Source of the DNA: Curtobacterium sp. MCSS17_007
GTDB taxonomy: Bacteria; Actinomycetota; Actinomycetes; Actinomycetales; Microbacteriaceae
Reading direction: 5' to 3'
NCBI RefSeq assembly: GCF_003234175.2
Contig: NZ_CP126257.1
Span: 868,001 to 932,000 of the forward strand
Length of the DNA: 64,000 bases
Made by a program: the position numbers and the translations under genes. The notes beneath the pieces were generated by a model. The model was not told the origin of the DNA. It did no database searches and saw only the letters and a program-made list of their open reading frames with translations. This document shows, piece after piece, positions 10,476 through 64,000 of the stretch (its first letter is position 1; each line of letters begins with the position of its first letter).

Positions 10476-11291
10476 ATGGCCACCCTGACCGTCGCCGCCG
10501 CGCAGTTCGCCCCCGTCGACGACCCCGTCGCCAACCTCGAGACCGTCCGGGCCGCCGCTCGGGACGCGGCCCTCCGCGGAGCCGACCTGCTCGTGACGCC
10601 CGAGTACACCTCGTACTTCTCCGCCGACATCGACGACCGGTTCGTCGCGGCTGCGGAACCCCTCGACGGTCCGTTCGTCAGCGGACTGCGCCAGATCGCG
10701 CGCGAGAACGGCGTCGCGCTCGTCGTGGGCGTCGCCGAGACCGCGGAGTCGGCCGGTCGGTTCCGGAACACCCTCGTCGCCGTCCTGGCGGACGGTTCGC
10801 TCGCGGCCACCTACCGCAAGGTGCACCTCTACGACGCGTTCGGGTCGAAGGAGTCGGACCGCATCGAGTCCGGTGCCGTCGACCAGCTCCCGGTGTTCGG
10901 ACTCGGCGGCGTCCGGGTCGGGCTCGAGACCTGTTACGACCTGCGCTTCCCGGAGGTCACGCGCCGCCTGGCGGCACCGGAGACCGGCGCTGCCGACGTC
11001 GTCGTGCTGCCGGCCGAGTGGGTCCGCGGTCCGGGGAAGGAACACCACTGGCGGACCCTCCTGACCGCCCGCGCCATCGAGAACACCGTCTGGGTGGTCG
11101 GGGTCGGGCAGACGGGGCCGGTTGGCATCGGCGGATCGGTGGTCGTGGATCCCAGCGGCGTGGCGGTCGCCGCTGCCGGTGCTGCCCCGGGCACCCTCCT
11201 CGCGACCGTCGACACGGCGACGACGGACGCGGTGCGGGCCGTCAACCCCTCGCTGTCACTCCGACGCTTCGACGTGCACCCCCGCGTCTGA
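10476..11291 (+). CDS. Carbon-nitrogen hydrolase (nitrilase superfamily amidase)
   Basis: A 271-residue amidohydrolase of the nitrilase/omega-amidase type. The Glu-Lys-Cys triad is visible: Glu in TPEYTS near residue 43, Lys in YRKVHLYD near 115 and Cys in ETCYDLRFPE near 152. A second conserved Glu-containing helix, VRGPGKEHHWRTLLTARAIE, lies near residue 185. Length is normal for stand-alone members. The substrate cannot be read from sequence; deaminated glutathione or omega-amides are usual for close relatives. The -10 box fixes the start at ATG 10476. A 1-kb repeat array follows the stop, and no terminator hairpin is obvious. Confidence 0.9.
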   Translation: MATLTVAAAQFAPVDDPVANLETVRAAARDAALRGADLLVTPEYTSYFSADIDDRFVAAAEPLDGPFVSGLRQIARENGVALVVGVAETAESAGRFRNTLVAVLADGSLAATYRKVHLYDAFGSKESDRIESGAVDQLPVFGLGGVRVGLETCYDLRFPEVTRRLAAPETGAADVVVLPAEWVRGPGKEHHWRTLLTARAIENTVWVVGVGQTGPVGIGGSVVVDPSGVAVAAAGAAPGTLLATVDTATTDAVRAVNPSLSLRRFDVHPRV

Positions 11292-12309
11292 CACCCCCTG
11301 ACGGTCGACCCGGCTCGAGCCGTCCGCGCCCGCGCCCGCGCCTGCCCGTCCGGCCACCCACGACGAGCGGGCGGAAGCGTCCGGCCCCGTCGCCTGTTCG
11401 TCCGCCCACGGTGGCGAGCGGGCGAAGAGGTCAGCACGTGCGCGCGACGAACGTCGGTTCCGCCCGTTGGCGCGCCGCACGCCGCCCGAGGCGCACGAGG
11501 CGGACGAGGCGCACGAGGCGCACGAGGCGCACGAGGCGCACGAGGCACCACCGCTCGCGTCATTGCTCACGTCACCGCGGCTCAGCCGCACGACCCGAAC
11601 GGGCGGAATCGAGCCGAAGGTCGCGCGCCGTGCGCACATTCCGCCCGCTGGCGTTGCCCCTGGGACGGACGGCCGCCACCGAACGGGCGGAACCTTCCGG
11701 GAGGGCGCGCGACACGTGCCGATTCCGCCCGTCCGTGCCCGGCTCCAGATGAACGGCTCCGTTCGAACGGGCGGGACGCCAGGTCTCGTGCACGCCCCGG
11801 CTGCTGCGCCCGTTCGTCGTCAGCGGCCGGTCGCACGAGTCGAGCGGGCGGAACGTGTGGGAGTGCGCCGCCGCCGACCACCGCATCCGCCCGCTCGGGG
11901 ACCGCGGATCGGGTACGAGGTCCAACCACTCGAGCCTCGAGCCTCGAGCACCCTGGGTACTGAGCGGGCGGAATCTCCGGTCGACGTACTCGCACGGCGC
12001 AGCAAACGCCCGCTCGTCGGCGGGCGCGAGGGCGCGGGGCGGCCGCGGGACGATCGCGGTCCGGGCCAGCTCGTGGCAGCCGCGCGAGACGACGAGGGGG
12101 ACGACGAGCGGGCGGAAGGTGCACGCAGCGCGCGGGAGCACAGCAGGAAGCGTCCGCTCGCGACGACGGCACCGGCGTCATCCGGGGCCGAGCTGGACAC
12201 GACGTGCGTCGGCGGAACACGACGGGTGCCGGGAACGCCCGGCACCGGGACATGGTGGGGCGGGGCGGACGGGGCCCGCGGGGCGGGGGAGGGCGTGCCT
12301 CCCGTCGGT
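11292..12309. repeat. Gene-free 1-kb array of repeat family A (alternating inverted 12-mers)
   Basis: No credible gene is seen. The stretch holds GAGCGGGCGGAA-like sites alternating with the inverse (TTCCGCCCGCTC). Forward sites begin at 11365, 11416, 11597, 11681, 11765, 11842, 11962 and 12106. Inverse or weaker inverse sites begin near 11396, 11458, 11638, 11722, 11806, 11885, 12005 and 12149. From 11416 on, each forward site is followed by an inverse site 41-43 bp on, so each pair could form a hairpin with a ~30-nt variable interior. Several inverse-to-forward steps are also 43 bp. Long open frames cross the region only because the sequence is GC-rich. A single arm of repeat family B lies at its right end (12292-12308). 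Confidence 0.85.
11491..11544 (+). repeat. 9-bp tandem repeat, six units
   Basis: GCGCACGAG is repeated six times without gaps; the second unit has one C-to-G change. It lies inside the family A array, between the sites at 11458 and 11597. Confidence 0.9.
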
Positions 12310-13512
12310 TCAGCGGGAGGGCGTGAGCGCGGCGAGGCGGCTCGCCGCTTCGGTGAGCACGTCCCGGCGCTTGCAGAACGCGAACCGCACGAGCGACCGG
12401 TACCCCACTGCGTGGTCGGGTCGGACGAAGGCGGAGACCGGGACACCGACGACGCCGGCCAGCTCCGGGAGCGCGAGGCAGAACTCGCGGGCGTCCCGGT
12501 GACCGAGCGGCGCCGTGTCCGCGATGACGAAGTAGCCGCCGTCCGGCCGCAGGACGTCGAACCCGGCCGAGCGGAGCCCGGCCGCGAGCAGGTCGTGCTT
12601 GGCGGAGAGCTCCTGGGCGATGCCGTGGAAGACCTCGTCCGGCAGTCTGAGGCCGGCCGCGATCGCCGGCTGGAACGGCGCGCCGTTGACGAAGGTGAGG
12701 TACTGCTTCACCGAGACGATCGCCTCGACCAGTGGTGCTGGGGCGGTGAGCCAGCCGATCTTCCACCCCGTGGTGCTGAAGGTCTTGCCCGCGCTCGAGA
12801 TGGTCACCGTCCGGTCCGCGGCTCCCGGCAGCGTCGCGATCGGCACGTGCGGTACGTCGAAGGTCAGGTGCTCGTAGACCTCGTCCGTGACGATCAGGGC
12901 GTCGTGCCGCTCGGCGAGTTCGACGACGGTGGCGAGGACCTCGTGGGGGAGCACCCGTCCGGTCGGGTTGTGCGGCGTGTTGAGGAGCACGACTCGGGTG
13001 CGGTCGGAGAACGCAGCGCGGAGAGTGTCCTCGTCGGGCAGGAAGTCCGGGGCGGTGAGCGGCACGGTGACGTGGGTGCCGCCGGCGAGGCGGATCAGCG
13101 CGCCGTACGCGTCGTAGAACGGCTCGAGGGTGACGACCTCGTCTCCCGGCTCGACGAAGGCGAGGAGCGTCGCTGCCAGGGCCTCGGTCGCACCGGCGGT
13201 GACGAGGACCTCACGATCAGGGTCCACCGTCAGGCCGTACCAGCGCTGTTGGTGCTCGGCGACCGCGGCGCGGAGCTCCGGGGCGCCGCGGCCGGGCGGG
13301 TACTGGTTCACACCGCGTCGGACGGCGTCGACGGCTGCCTCGAGCACCGCGGCGGGGCCGTCCTCGTCAGGGAACCCCTGGCCGAGGTTGATCGCCCCGG
13401 TCGCAGCCGCGAGCGCGCTCATCTCGGCGAAGACCGTGGGTGCCGGGACGCCGTCGGGGCCGAGCAGCATCGCTCCCTCGGCGGCTCTGAGCCATGGTCC
13501 GGTGCGGTGCAT
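12310..13512 (-). CDS. PLP-dependent class I/II aminotransferase
   Basis: A 400-residue fold-type I aminotransferase of the kynurenine/methionine aminotransferase (YbdL-like) type. NTPHNPTG is near residue 177. The PLP lysine is in SSAGKTFSTTGWKIG near 242, preceded by DEVYEHLTF, which carries the cofactor-ring Asp. INLGQGFPDEDGP near residue 40 is typical of this subgroup. The ATG at 13512 is chosen because AGGAGG lies 5-10 nt upstream; longer readings enter an intergenic tract. The amino donor is not determinable. It diverges from the htrA-like gene, with a shared 213-bp promoter region. Confidence 0.92.
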   Translation of the reverse strand: MHRTGPWLRAAEGAMLLGPDGVPAPTVFAEMSALAAATGAINLGQGFPDEDGPAAVLEAAVDAVRRGVNQYPPGRGAPELRAAVAEHQQRWYGLTVDPDREVLVTAGATEALAATLLAFVEPGDEVVTLEPFYDAYGALIRLAGGTHVTVPLTAPDFLPDEDTLRAAFSDRTRVVLLNTPHNPTGRVLPHEVLATVVELAERHDALIVTDEVYEHLTFDVPHVPIATLPGAADRTVTISSAGKTFSTTGWKIGWLTAPAPLVEAIVSVKQYLTFVNGAPFQPAIAAGLRLPDEVFHGIAQELSAKHDLLAAGLRSAGFDVLRPDGGYFVIADTAPLGHRDAREFCLALPELAGVVGVPVSAFVRPDHAVGYRSLVRFAFCKRRDVLTEAASRLAALTPSR

Positions 13513-27561: not shown

Positions 27562-28159
27562 GCGACGCAGCGGTGGGGAGGCGCGGGGCGCGCGGTGTGC
27601 GCGGGGTCGTCGGGTGCGCACGAGGAGTGCTCGGGGCGCCCGTGGGCGGCCGGGTGTCGCGGCGCGGGTCGCGCCTCCTGGGCGGAGCGGCCGGCCGGCG
27701 GGGCCGGGCGGGGCTGGGCTGGGGCTGGGGCTGGGGCTGGGGTGGGGGTGGCCTGGCCGGCCCGGTCGGCCCGGAGCGGCGGGCGGGCGGAAGCGGCGCG
27801 CTCGACGCCCAGTGCGGAGCGGGAACCGCCCGCTCGAGGGGTCGGCGTGCTTGCCGGCCAGGGTGGCGCGGCGAACGGGCAGGAGCGGCCGCCGTGACGC
27901 TCCGTGCCCAGCGGGAAGTGCCCGCTCGTGAGGTGGGAGGTCGCTGCGGGCAGGGCCGGCGCGGCGAGCGGGCGGAAGCGGCGCGTTCGACGCCCAGTGC
28001 CGAGCGGGAACCGCCCGCTCGCGGGGTTGGACGTGCCTCCACGCCGGGTCGGCGCGGGTCCTGACCGGACCGAGCTGGAGGGCGGGAACGGCTCTCGGGC
28101 ACATCGCACCGTTGCGTGCGGGACCGCGGTCCTCGGAGGTGGGGCGTGCGGATCCGCCC

Positions 28160-28177: not shown

Positions 28178-28352
28178 GCGGACGTCGGTCGGCGCACGTG
28201 TCCGGGTGGTGCCGCGCGCGAACGGGCGGAACCGACGGGTGGGACACGTGCGTGCTGCGTATTCCGCCCGCTCGCGCGGTGAGCGTGGGGTGCCCGCCGC
28301 CCGGGTCGCGCCCGGGTCGCGCACGCAGTGGGGGAACGGGGGAGCGGCTCGG

Positions 28353-48353: not shown

Positions 48354-48711
48354 CCGCGCCGACCACCTGACGCGCGCGACCCTGGCGATCGGGGTGCCCC
48401 GCGCCTCCCGGCCGCCGCCGCGCGAGCGGGCGTTCCCTGCGGTGTGGCGGGTGTGGGGTGGTGCGTTCCCGCCCGCTCGCGACGGGTGCGGTGGTGGTGT
48501 GGGCCCCGGGTGTGGCGAGCGGGCGGTTCCTGCGGCGGTGGACGGGCGGGGTGGTGCGTTTCCGCCCGCTCGCGACGGGTGCGGTGGTGGTGTGGGCCCC
48601 GGGTGTGGCGAGCGGGCGGTTCCAGCGGCGGTGGACGGGCGGGGTGGTGCGTTTCCGCCCGCTCGCGCGCGGGTCCGGGGCGATCGGCGTGTCGACGCCT
48701 ACTGTTGAGGG
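48354..48711. repeat. Tandem 93-bp repeat made of family A units
   Basis: A gene-free gap. Three family A pairs start at 48424, 48517 and 48610 (exact 93-bp period), each with an inverse partner 42 bp on (about 48466, 48559, 48652). Units two and three have nearly identical interiors (GCGGCGGTGGACGGGCGG), and the connecting DNA GGTGCGGTGGTGGTGTGGG is also repeated. A family B arm is at 48401-48414. The -10 box of the next gene lies at 48700-48705. Confidence 0.88.
48700..48705 (+). promoter_or_regulatory. -10 box of the 48.7-kb gene
   Basis: TACTGT ends 7 nt before the ATG at 48712; leaderless mRNA predicted. Confidence 0.5.
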
Positions 48712-49365
48712 ATGGACGGCATCGACGGTCGCGTGCGAGGTGCGGTCGAGGTGTGGCTGCGCTGGCTCCCGCGCTGGCAGATCGGCACGGCCCGTCCGCG
48801 CACCCGGATCTGCCGCAGGTGCACCGGCTCGCCGATCGCGACCGCGGCCGGGTTCGGACCCGACGTCCCGCACGCCGTGCAGCACGCGCTGATCGGACGG
48901 ATCTCGACGATCGTCGAGGACGCCGTCGACGAGTACACCGCCAGGAACCTGCCGCTGCTGCAGCGCGAGCTCGAACGAGCGGCGGCCCGGAAGCGGCACG
49001 CCGGGTACCAGCCGACCGAGGGACTGTCGCCGGAGTTCCAGGGACTCGACGTGGACCCCGAGCCGTCGCCCGGCGAGCCGTTCCTGTTCACGCTCGACGA
49101 GTTGACGGGCACGGGAGCGGGGGAGCAGGCGCCGCGGGAGCCGCTCTCGGACGAGGCGAAGGCGGCTCTCCGGCACGAGATCGCCCTCTCGGACGAGTGC
49201 GCGCGAGCGACGGGGACGGCCGTGTGCCTGGCACTCGTCGAACACCGACCGCGCATCGCCGAGGCCGTCGAGCGCCTGGTCGAGCCCCAGATCGCTGCGC
49301 TCGTGTCCGACATGTTCCGCGGGTTCGACGGCTCTGCGGAAGCAGGGCGCGAGGGCCTCTTCTGA
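48712..49365 (+). CDS. Conserved-type protein of unknown function with a CxxC pair
   Basis: A 217-residue soluble protein that I cannot place in a characterised family. It opens with DGRVRGAVEVWLRWLPRW, then RICRRCTGSP (Cys34, Cys37, a possible zinc knuckle), a helical segment with DAVDEYTARNLPLLQRELERA near 70-90, an acidic low-complexity middle (120-145) and a helical C-terminal domain. It has no signal peptide or membrane segment. Similar actinobacterial proteins are sometimes labelled as transporter substrate-binding proteins, but nothing in this sequence supports that. It is followed 50 bp later by the DUF3054 gene. Confidence 0.75.
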   Translation: MDGIDGRVRGAVEVWLRWLPRWQIGTARPRTRICRRCTGSPIATAAGFGPDVPHAVQHALIGRISTIVEDAVDEYTARNLPLLQRELERAAARKRHAGYQPTEGLSPEFQGLDVDPEPSPGEPFLFTLDELTGTGAGEQAPREPLSDEAKAALRHEIALSDECARATGTAVCLALVEHRPRIAEAVERLVEPQIAALVSDMFRGFDGSAEAGREGLF

Positions 49366-62102: not shown

Positions 62103-62511
62103 GGTGGTGCTCCTCTTCGTCAGGGCGGGTGCCGGGTGCAACGGGCCCCGCGAGCGGGCGATTCCCGCGCTCCGGGCAGACGACACGCTACGCCCGCTCG
62201 CGGTCGGGCAGCGAGGGCGGGTGTCGCGGCGGTTCCGGGACGGGACGGGACGGGGTGCCCCGCGGTCTCGCTCGCTGGCTGCGAGTGGGCGGAAACAGCG
62301 CCGGGAAGACCACGGACGCCGCTGATTCCGCCCGCTCGGCGTCGACAGGAGGAGGGAGGGGGCGCCGGGGGTGAGACGCCGAACGGCCCGGCTCCGTGGG
62401 GGAGGAGCCGGGCCGTTCGCCGGGTACTGCAGGTGCGCGTGTTCGGTGCCCCCGGTCACCGGCACCGCAGTGCTGCGGGGCGGGTGACCGTGGTTCGAGG
62501 GATGCGGAGGG
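62103..62511. repeat. Gene-free gap with two family A units
   Basis: Two pairs occur: forward at 62152 with inverse at 62189 (37 bp), and forward at 62283 (GAGTGGGCGGAA) with inverse at 62325 (42 bp). The second unit contains a GGACGCCGCTGATTCCG stretch recalling the repeat in the neighbouring reductase gene. The rest holds the yceI terminator. Confidence 0.75.
62381..62418 (-). terminator. Hairpin terminator of the yceI-family gene
   Basis: A 15-bp perfect stem GAACGGCCCGGCTCC with an 8-nt loop, about 95 nt beyond the stop of the minus-strand gene. Confidence 0.7.
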
Positions 62512-63194: not shown

Positions 63195-64000
63195 TCACGA
63201 GAACGTCGCAAGGTGATCTCGGGGGCGGGAGTCGTGCCTCCCGGCCGTGCCGGTCGCGAGCAGGCGTCGAACGCGCCGGACGAACTGATCGGCGAGCGGA
63301 CCGACGTCGTCTGCCGTCGCACGGACGAGCCACCAGTCGACGTCCTTGAGGTGCTCGCCGCGCGTGAGGTCCTTGCGGAACGTCCGTGCGTCCGTGCGGT
63401 GGAGGTCGCTCTCGTACTCGATCGCGACGCGGGCGGTCGGGTATGCCAGATCGACGCAAGCGACCCAGCGACCGTCGACCACGACGTCGTGGTTGAGCTC
63501 CGGTTGCGGGAGGCCCCGTCGCACCAGCGTCAGACGCAGTCGGGTCTCGCCGGGACTCCTCGAGCCGGCCCGGACCTCGGCGAGCGCGGCACGGGCCTTG
63601 CGGATGCCCCGAGCTCCGCGGTGTCTGCGAACGGCGGCTGCGAGCTCGGCGACCGTGCACCAGTTCAGCCACCCGACGAGGGCGTCACCGGCGACGACGA
63701 GCTCGTCCAACGTCAGGATCCTCGCGAGCATGACGAAGGTGTGCGCGGGGTCGACGACCCTCGCTGTGCCGGAGAACACCACGTGGGCGCGTCCAGCCTT
63801 GACACGGTGCCCGACCGTGCCGCGGACCCGGAGCGCCTGGTCCGTCCCGATCGTCGCGACGTGGATCCGGTGGTCGCGCTCGAGTCGCAGGGGCAGGGGG
63901 ATGCCGAGCAGGTGGGCGGCCGTGGTGTGGCTGAAGGCCTGGTCGGCGCGGAGGCGTGGGGCGAGGGCGCGGGCGCGTTCGGCGTGGTCGGTCGGCGGCG
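63195..64000 (-). CDS. DUF559/AbiEi-like protein, 5' end beyond the window
   Basis: The frame is open from the window edge to the stop at 63195 (268 codons), without a stop and with no start needed. The first visible residues, HAERARALAPRLRADQAFSH and TTAAHLLGIPLP, match the N-terminal part of AbiEi-antitoxin-like proteins common in Microbacteriaceae. The C-terminal part (HDVVVDGRWVACVDLAYP, then VAIEYESDLHR and DWWLVRA) resembles the DUF559/Vsr-like PD-(D/E)XK nuclease fold, with Asp and E-x-E positions kept. No toxin gene is adjacent. The last codons include a family B arm (63231-63247). Function uncertain: possible nuclease or antitoxin. Confidence 0.8.
   Translation of the reverse strand, partial: PPTDHAERARALAPRLRADQAFSHTTAAHLLGIPLPLRLERDHRIHVATIGTDQALRVRGTVGHRVKAGRAHVVFSGTARVVDPAHTFVMLARILTLDELVVAGDALVGWLNWCTVAELAAAVRRHRGARGIRKARAALAEVRAGSRSPGETRLRLTLVRRGLPQPELNHDVVVDGRWVACVDLAYPTARVAIEYESDLHRTDARTFRKDLTRGEHLKDVDWWLVRATADDVGPLADQFVRRVRRLLATGTAGRHDSRPRDHLATFS
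63231..63247 (+). repeat. Repeat family B arm inside the DUF559/AbiEi-like gene
   Basis: GTCGTGCCTCCCGGCCG lies antisense within the last 20 codons of the gene, where the protein reads GTAGRHDSRP. Confidence 0.55.

Follow-up and report, generated by a model that had tools for sequence, protein, structure and literature searches.

CRISPR arrays are built of short conserved repeats with differing interiors. Inverted repeats are also bound by AbiEi, the antitoxin and autorepressor of AbiE systems, which recognizes two such repeats in its own promoter, laid out as 11-N27-11 and extended to 23-N3-23 (PMC3985639). In REPIN/RAYT systems, the partner gene tracks the repeats (PMC2817692, PMC3116915). 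Here, we describe an array of inverted 12-mers in a gene-free gap of a 64,000-nucleotide stretch of the Curtobacterium sp. MCSS17_007 chromosome (hereafter, the window; bases 868,001-932,000 of the single 3.31-Mb contig that makes up the genome, in which dnaA lies at ca. 1 kb), and a gene for a 314-amino-acid (aa) protein that accompanies the repeats in the Curtobacterium genomes compared at its locus.

An array of inverted doublets in helical register

The array occupies a gap of 1,018 bp without strand assignment (11292..12309), flanked by convergent genes: a carbon-nitrogen hydrolase gene (PF00795; 10446..11291, plus strand) on the left, and a class I/II aminotransferase gene (PF00155; 12310..13470, minus strand), which served as the cross-species anchor, on the right. 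Its unit is a doublet of 54-56 bp with the core GARCGGGC-N(38-40)-GCCCGYTC or, expressed as 12-mers, 12-N(30-32)-12. Forward 12-mers GRRCGGGCGGAA start at 11365, 11597, 11681, 11765 (one mismatch), 11842, 11962, and 12106, and inverse 12-mers at 11458, 11639, 11723, and 11885 (one mismatch each, except at 11723); weaker partner arms complete three of the doublets (11416-11469, 11962-12015, and 12106-12159). In total, the gap holds six doublets: 11416..11469 (54 bp, with a degenerate forward tail and one mismatch in the inverse arm), 11597..11650 (54 bp), 11681..11734 (54 bp, both arms matching GRRCGGGCGGAA), 11842..11896 (55 bp, exact core pair), 11962..12015 (54 bp, exact core pair with a variant inverse tail), and 12106..12159 (54 bp, with a single mismatch in the core of the inverse arm). 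Two lone forward sites on the plus strand, GAGCGGGCGGAA at 11365..11376 and a 12-mer with one mismatch at 11765..11776, have no in-register partner. The forward-to-inverse start distances are 42, 42, 42, 43, 42, and 42 bp, and the steps from doublet to doublet are 181, 84, 161, 120, and 144 bp. The initial annotation had described at least eight alternations; the alternation stands, but the count does not. Its seven forward-to-inverse distances of 41-43 bp were accurate to within 1 bp but do not map one-to-one onto six doublets, and its 43-bp inverse-to-forward steps measured 42 bp (11639 to 11681 and 11723 to 11765).

The gap contains 11 near-perfect 12-mers, compared with a mean of 0.09 and a maximum of 2 in 200 shuffles. 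Across the window, eight exact-core doublets (0.01 in 100 shuffles, maximum 1) and 26 sites with at most one mismatch (4.15 in 100 shuffles, maximum 10) were found. We conclude that the array of alternating inverted 12-mers first noticed in this gap of about 1 kb is real, and that shuffling excludes its origin by chance. A nine-base tandem repeat, CGCACGAGG-like and five steps long, lies within the same gap (11483-11546).

Spacing was measured in 57 sequences not chosen by spacing; a further 10 of the 67 sequences, obtained with a spacing-bearing pattern, were left out of this count, and one spacing count also left out six search loci overlapping other fetched stretches. Identical contexts were collapsed here and in the helical-ladder and arm-covariation analyses. 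The forward-to-inverse distance was 42-44 bp in all 118 pairs less than 89 bp apart, in agreement with the initial proposal of a peak near 42 bp, and bare cores were 46-48 bp apart in 156 of 188 pairs less than 120 bp apart. With the spacing-selected loci included, the corresponding figures were 147/150 and 188/225. Distances between doublets vary but form a ladder near 35, 46, 57, and 67 bp, with a period of 10.3 bp; the period was 10.35 bp for the 53 pairs with dissimilar interiors, and 10.55 bp when these were also limited to 80 bp or less. Such periodicity was reached in none of 2000 jittered controls for each of the three pair sets. The quantised inter-doublet distances thus represent register on the double helix. 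Streptomyces and two Arthrobacter loci did not enter the ladder and arm-covariation analyses, nor a search for a second repeat family.

Within loci, the two arms of a doublet agreed no better than swapped arms (0.491 versus 0.498, n = 195), i.e., no covariation was observed. Because the distances are helically quantised and the arms lack within-locus covariation, the doublets look like sites for a protein on double-stranded DNA.

A gene that accompanies the repeats

A candidate gene for the binding protein, coding for 314 aa, lies at 63195..64139 on the minus strand (the window holds 63195..64000), between YceI and aldo/keto reductase genes, with a further array in the gap upstream of it (64140-64690). 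All 24 doublet-positive genomes whose locus was fully covered carry the gene, again flanked by YceI and aldo/keto reductase genes, and each of these loci contained 2-8 exact cores. The gene was absent from the locus in eight of eight zero-copy genomes, where YceI and the reductase are 163-200 bp apart; these eight span all three independent loss lineages. Since seven of the 32 genomes had served to spot the gene, the independent test of the link is 19/19 versus 0/6. The count of 32 does not contain G016 and G006, where the gene was seen at a locus cut by the edge of the sequence, nor G214, G002, G069, G004, and G227.

In a structure model, residues 2-190 of the protein adopt an AbiEi-antitoxin-like DNA-binding (winged-helix) fold, and residues 193-307 the fold of Vsr and of the homing endonuclease I-Bth0305I. 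Putative active-site residues of the nuclease-like half are conserved. Within the nuclease motif, EYE[S/G]D, position 244 is a serine in the first 16 rows of the alignment, which are the closest homologues, and a glycine in the other, more distant 18. Leifsonia, Luteipulveratus, and Nakamurella also have homologues of the protein. A PDB sequence search returned only artificial repeat proteins (E 0.025-0.17), and a search of NCBIfam gave no match.

Distribution, chromosomal position, and evolution

Core doublets were found in 56 of 66 Curtobacterium genomes, at 0-92 copies each (0-3 for a control pattern). In a sample of the order, 28 of 218 genomes had a match, with one or two each apart from the source genome, and controls were similar. 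The strict 12-mer pair was present in 16/39 genomes of a relatives sample and 3/150 of a family sample (source included), all of them Curtobacterium; in named contigs, it occurred in 46 stretches, of which 43 were from Curtobacterium, two from Arthrobacter, and one from Streptomyces. The plasmid set yielded no match. In g6, a genus of another family, the units are 55 bp long and have AGATAATGCCC arms, an arm that 4 of 41 genomes contain; a second repeat family of the 55-bp geometry was not seen in general. No description of these repeats was found in the literature within reach of the search, which most subscription journals lay outside.

The source genome carries 23 core doublets: 18 at 879.8-965.0 kb, one at 842 kb, and four elsewhere. 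Of its 35 exact 12-mers, 27 fall within 879,365-965,007, compared with four matches of a reversed control pattern. Outside the cluster there are five doublets, four of which have in common, as judged by eye, a GTCACGCTCGG-like or GTCACGCTCAGG arm. Elsewhere in the window, doublets lie between the nicotinate phosphoribosyltransferase and Asp/Glu racemase genes (27873..27927, 27966..28020, and a strict 12-mer pair at 28220..28273), between the DUF3097 gene and the gene at 48712 (48424..48478, 48517..48571, and 48610..48664, in 93-bp steps), and at 62283..62337 (with a single mismatch in the core of the forward arm). An Rfam scan revealed only two tRNAs in the window and two in L034.

The doublets cluster in one segment, which holds 21 of the 23 core doublets of this genome; in six near-complete genomes, all 36 strict pairs lie no more than 365 kb from the anchor. 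We conclude that clustering in one segment is shared by descent; a genus-wide rule of confinement was dropped, because in G210 only 9 of 92 doublets lie in the matching 360 kb. Clustering also fails in G195, where 10 of 22 12-mers are within 400 kb of the anchor. A dif-like pattern, used to look for the terminus, had no match; since codon-3 skew switches, noisily, near 1.5-1.6 Mb, the cluster of this genome is placed mid-arm. At its far edge (window-relative 101208-109875, ca. 969-978 kb), the array segment is sparse in coding sequence, with three called genes that have no match in the compared species, and no Rfam match was found there.

Arrays occur at orthologous gaps in several species, beside ordinary or core genes in any orientation, and some doublets lie inside reading frames. 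Identity between G007 and G020 was 88% in the 12-mers, 52% in the remaining gap, and 86% at codon third positions, and in every one of 21 species pairs the 12-mers were more similar than the sequence around them in the gap (cores were picked by motif, and unaligned columns were scored as mismatches). Compared gaps with at least two 12-mers are 188-1,018 bp long; in the zero-copy genomes, the same gaps are 0-251 bp (G200) and 106-264 bp (G019), except for one of 719 bp in G019 that holds a different repeat. On a tree of 59 of the 66 genomes, rooted by midpoint only, the nine zero-copy genomes require three changes, forced by starred branches.

Several other repeats and length variations were seen at these loci. 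In G019, the gap matching that of window genes 59331/60352 (L131:16670-17253) contains inverted pairs of a different 12-mer, GAGGTCGCACGA, in which a distance of 43 bp occurs twice and direct steps measure 32 bp; L111 of G007 has three such sites as well. The 43 bp shared with the doublets may be a coincidence, because the copies are not independent. In G007, G020, and G015, the ends of this gap carry GGACGGGAGGCGCGG...CCGCGCCTCCCGTCC inverted repeats, bidirectional-terminator-like, which the arrays adjoin. Unrelated direct tandem repeats of ca. 15-19 bp lie in or near the gap downstream of the aminotransferase gene in L094, L097, and L109. Doublets are also found within an ABC-transporter gene of variable length (L033:18141-19739 and relatives). 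By crude gene calls, its product has 533 aa here, 665 in G020 (seven 12-mers), and 843 in G200 (none), so that length does not simply follow the doublets.

Interpretation of the arrays

Because the doublet has the layout of an AbiEi operator and the protein that tracks it has an AbiEi fold, we consider it probable that the arrays are amplified AbiEi-type operators of the 314-aa protein, in a partnership that is like that of REPIN and RAYT but involves an unrelated enzyme. Gene and arrays are found together and are missing together; the protein, therefore, probably reads the repeats, and perhaps spreads them. Each doublet would be an operator made up of two half-sites in inverted orientation, separated by about four turns of the helix, and the AbiEi-like N-terminal half of the protein would read each half-site on double-stranded DNA. 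Operators would have multiplied in intergenic gaps, largely via tandem duplication, and neighbours would be kept in helical register because, as we propose, the proteins bound to them pack side by side on the same face of the helix. Given the fold of the C-terminal half, the likeliest cause of multiplication would be that this half cuts or nicks near operators and that repair then copies them. That a single AbiEi-Vsr-like protein, combining antitoxin-type repressor and homing-type nuclease ancestry, recognizes its own operator and copies it through the chromosome into phased arrays, performing a RAYT-like role on double-stranded DNA, is a tentative proposal, and one that we hold with some doubt.

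A number of observations weigh against this interpretation. The longer steps of the window array do not amount to whole turns of the helix; phasing holds as a statistical result across the genus, and in the window array not every step conforms to it. Pooled over loci, arm agreement exceeded that of shuffled arms (0.492 versus 0.442, 0/500), since loci and clades do not share one arm consensus; joint deviation of both arms at position 10 was seen in 16 doublets, where 10.7 were expected. Only in 4 of the 21 species pairs were the 12-mers more alike than codon third positions. In G214, an uncounted genome with two doublets, the 20 kb examined include YceI but lack both the reductase and the gene. 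Absence of the gene was established at the YceI/reductase locus, not genome-wide, and related proteins of lower identity occur elsewhere (28-32% matches in three genomes). Through shared ancestry the genomes are non-independent, and the real sample is three losses. The best Foldseek E-value for the structure model was 0.01, and the PF18741 score was below cut-off. Binding of AbiEi was reported as non-cooperative (PMC3985639). What the analysis shows is the geometry, the phasing, the lack of within-locus covariation, the joint presence and absence, and the predicted fold; doublet binding, nuclease activity, and the driving of copying by the 314-aa protein are inferred.

The helical register, the position of arrays at orthologous gaps beside core genes in several species, and the clustering in one segment in six near-complete genomes would also be expected if the protein bound the doublets as a domesticated architectural or regulatory factor, with arrays that help the cell and a nuclease fold that is not used for copying. 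With the clustering failing in G210 and G195, the putative active-site residues conserved, and three lineages managing without the system, we regard this as rather unlikely. It is less likely still that gene and arrays are accessory features independent of each other, kept or lost together by chance, with another protein, or none, reading the doublets: although the gene-by-gene comparison covered the anchor segment only, the 24/24 versus 0/8 distribution over three losses, the cores adjoining the gene in every covered positive genome, and the nearly identical layout of AbiEi operators argue against it.

Two further explanations leave the protein aside. Hairpins acting in RNA, as terminators or mRNA stabilisers, had been suggested in the initial annotation, and the arms can indeed pair, with folding z-scores of -1.8 to -4.0 for seven doublets of this genome and -9.4 for one 55-bp g6 unit; such values, however, are expected of any inverted arms. 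The absence of within-locus covariation and of any terminator-like site in 11250-12350, together with helical quantisation and the occurrence of arrays in gaps of all gene orientations, makes this very improbable. Hardly more credible is that a short repeat grew neutrally, in the manner of a satellite, in gaps that tolerate it. A recent array of near-identical doublets in G017 (at 1140 kb) and other short tandem repeats in the same gap of other species speak for such growth; the fixed core distance, the quantisation between dissimilar doublets, and the tracking of one gene by the repeats speak against it. A phased binding array, also raised initially, is the best supported of the early suggestions, and now has a candidate binder, which is an AbiEi-like protein with a Vsr-like fold rather than a known nucleoid protein. 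A repeat family of unknown purpose is thereby tied to one gene and to a concrete, testable mechanism of recognition. If the amplified-operator interpretation is true, a repressor-nuclease fusion, and not just HUH transposases, can build chromosomal repeat arrays, and the lineages that lost the whole system are natural controls.

Comparison with known systems

With CRISPR arrays, the doublets share short conserved repeats and differing interiors of ca. 30 bp, but they alternate in orientation, and the strict doublet pattern is absent from the set of viral contigs. Confinement to one domain, as for MatP/matS-like sites, fits in the six near-complete genomes and fails in G210 and G195.

The proposal of a REP-like mobile element held for architecture and for the existence of a partner gene: as in REPIN and BIME elements, inverted doublets with variable interiors form alternating, regularly spaced, mostly extragenic clusters, and, as with RAYT, a partner gene tracks them. 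The partner in Curtobacterium, however, is the AbiEi-Vsr-like protein. RAYT (Y1 transposase, PF01797), sought as the mobilising enzyme, was found in none of the 66 Curtobacterium genomes and in 5 of 14 control genomes, and RAYT mobilisation was rejected accordingly. Judged by eye, the arms in the window are not stem-loops with a GTAG or CGTC tag; arms of the g6 units do contain GGGCAGATAATGCCC. In contrast to REPINs, the doublets show no within-locus compensatory arm changes, and, with regard to the REP/BIME trait of more than 100 repeats per genome, there are 23 doublets here and at most 92 (in G210) over the 66 genomes, a number with which G210 would qualify.

The C-terminal half of the 314-aa protein resembles I-Bth0305I and Vsr in fold and differs from them in its fusion with an AbiEi-like half and its association with repeat arrays; its nuclease activity is putative. 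AbiE systems differ in that the 314-aa gene has no adjacent AbiEii toxin gene but is flanked by YceI and aldo/keto reductase genes, that its product bears an additional C-terminal domain, and that dozens of doublets in arrays stand in place of one operator. The likeness to AbiEi lies in the fold of the N-terminal half and in the operator, whose 11-N27-11 arrangement (PMC3985639) is nearly the 12-N(30-32)-12 layout of the Curtobacterium doublet.
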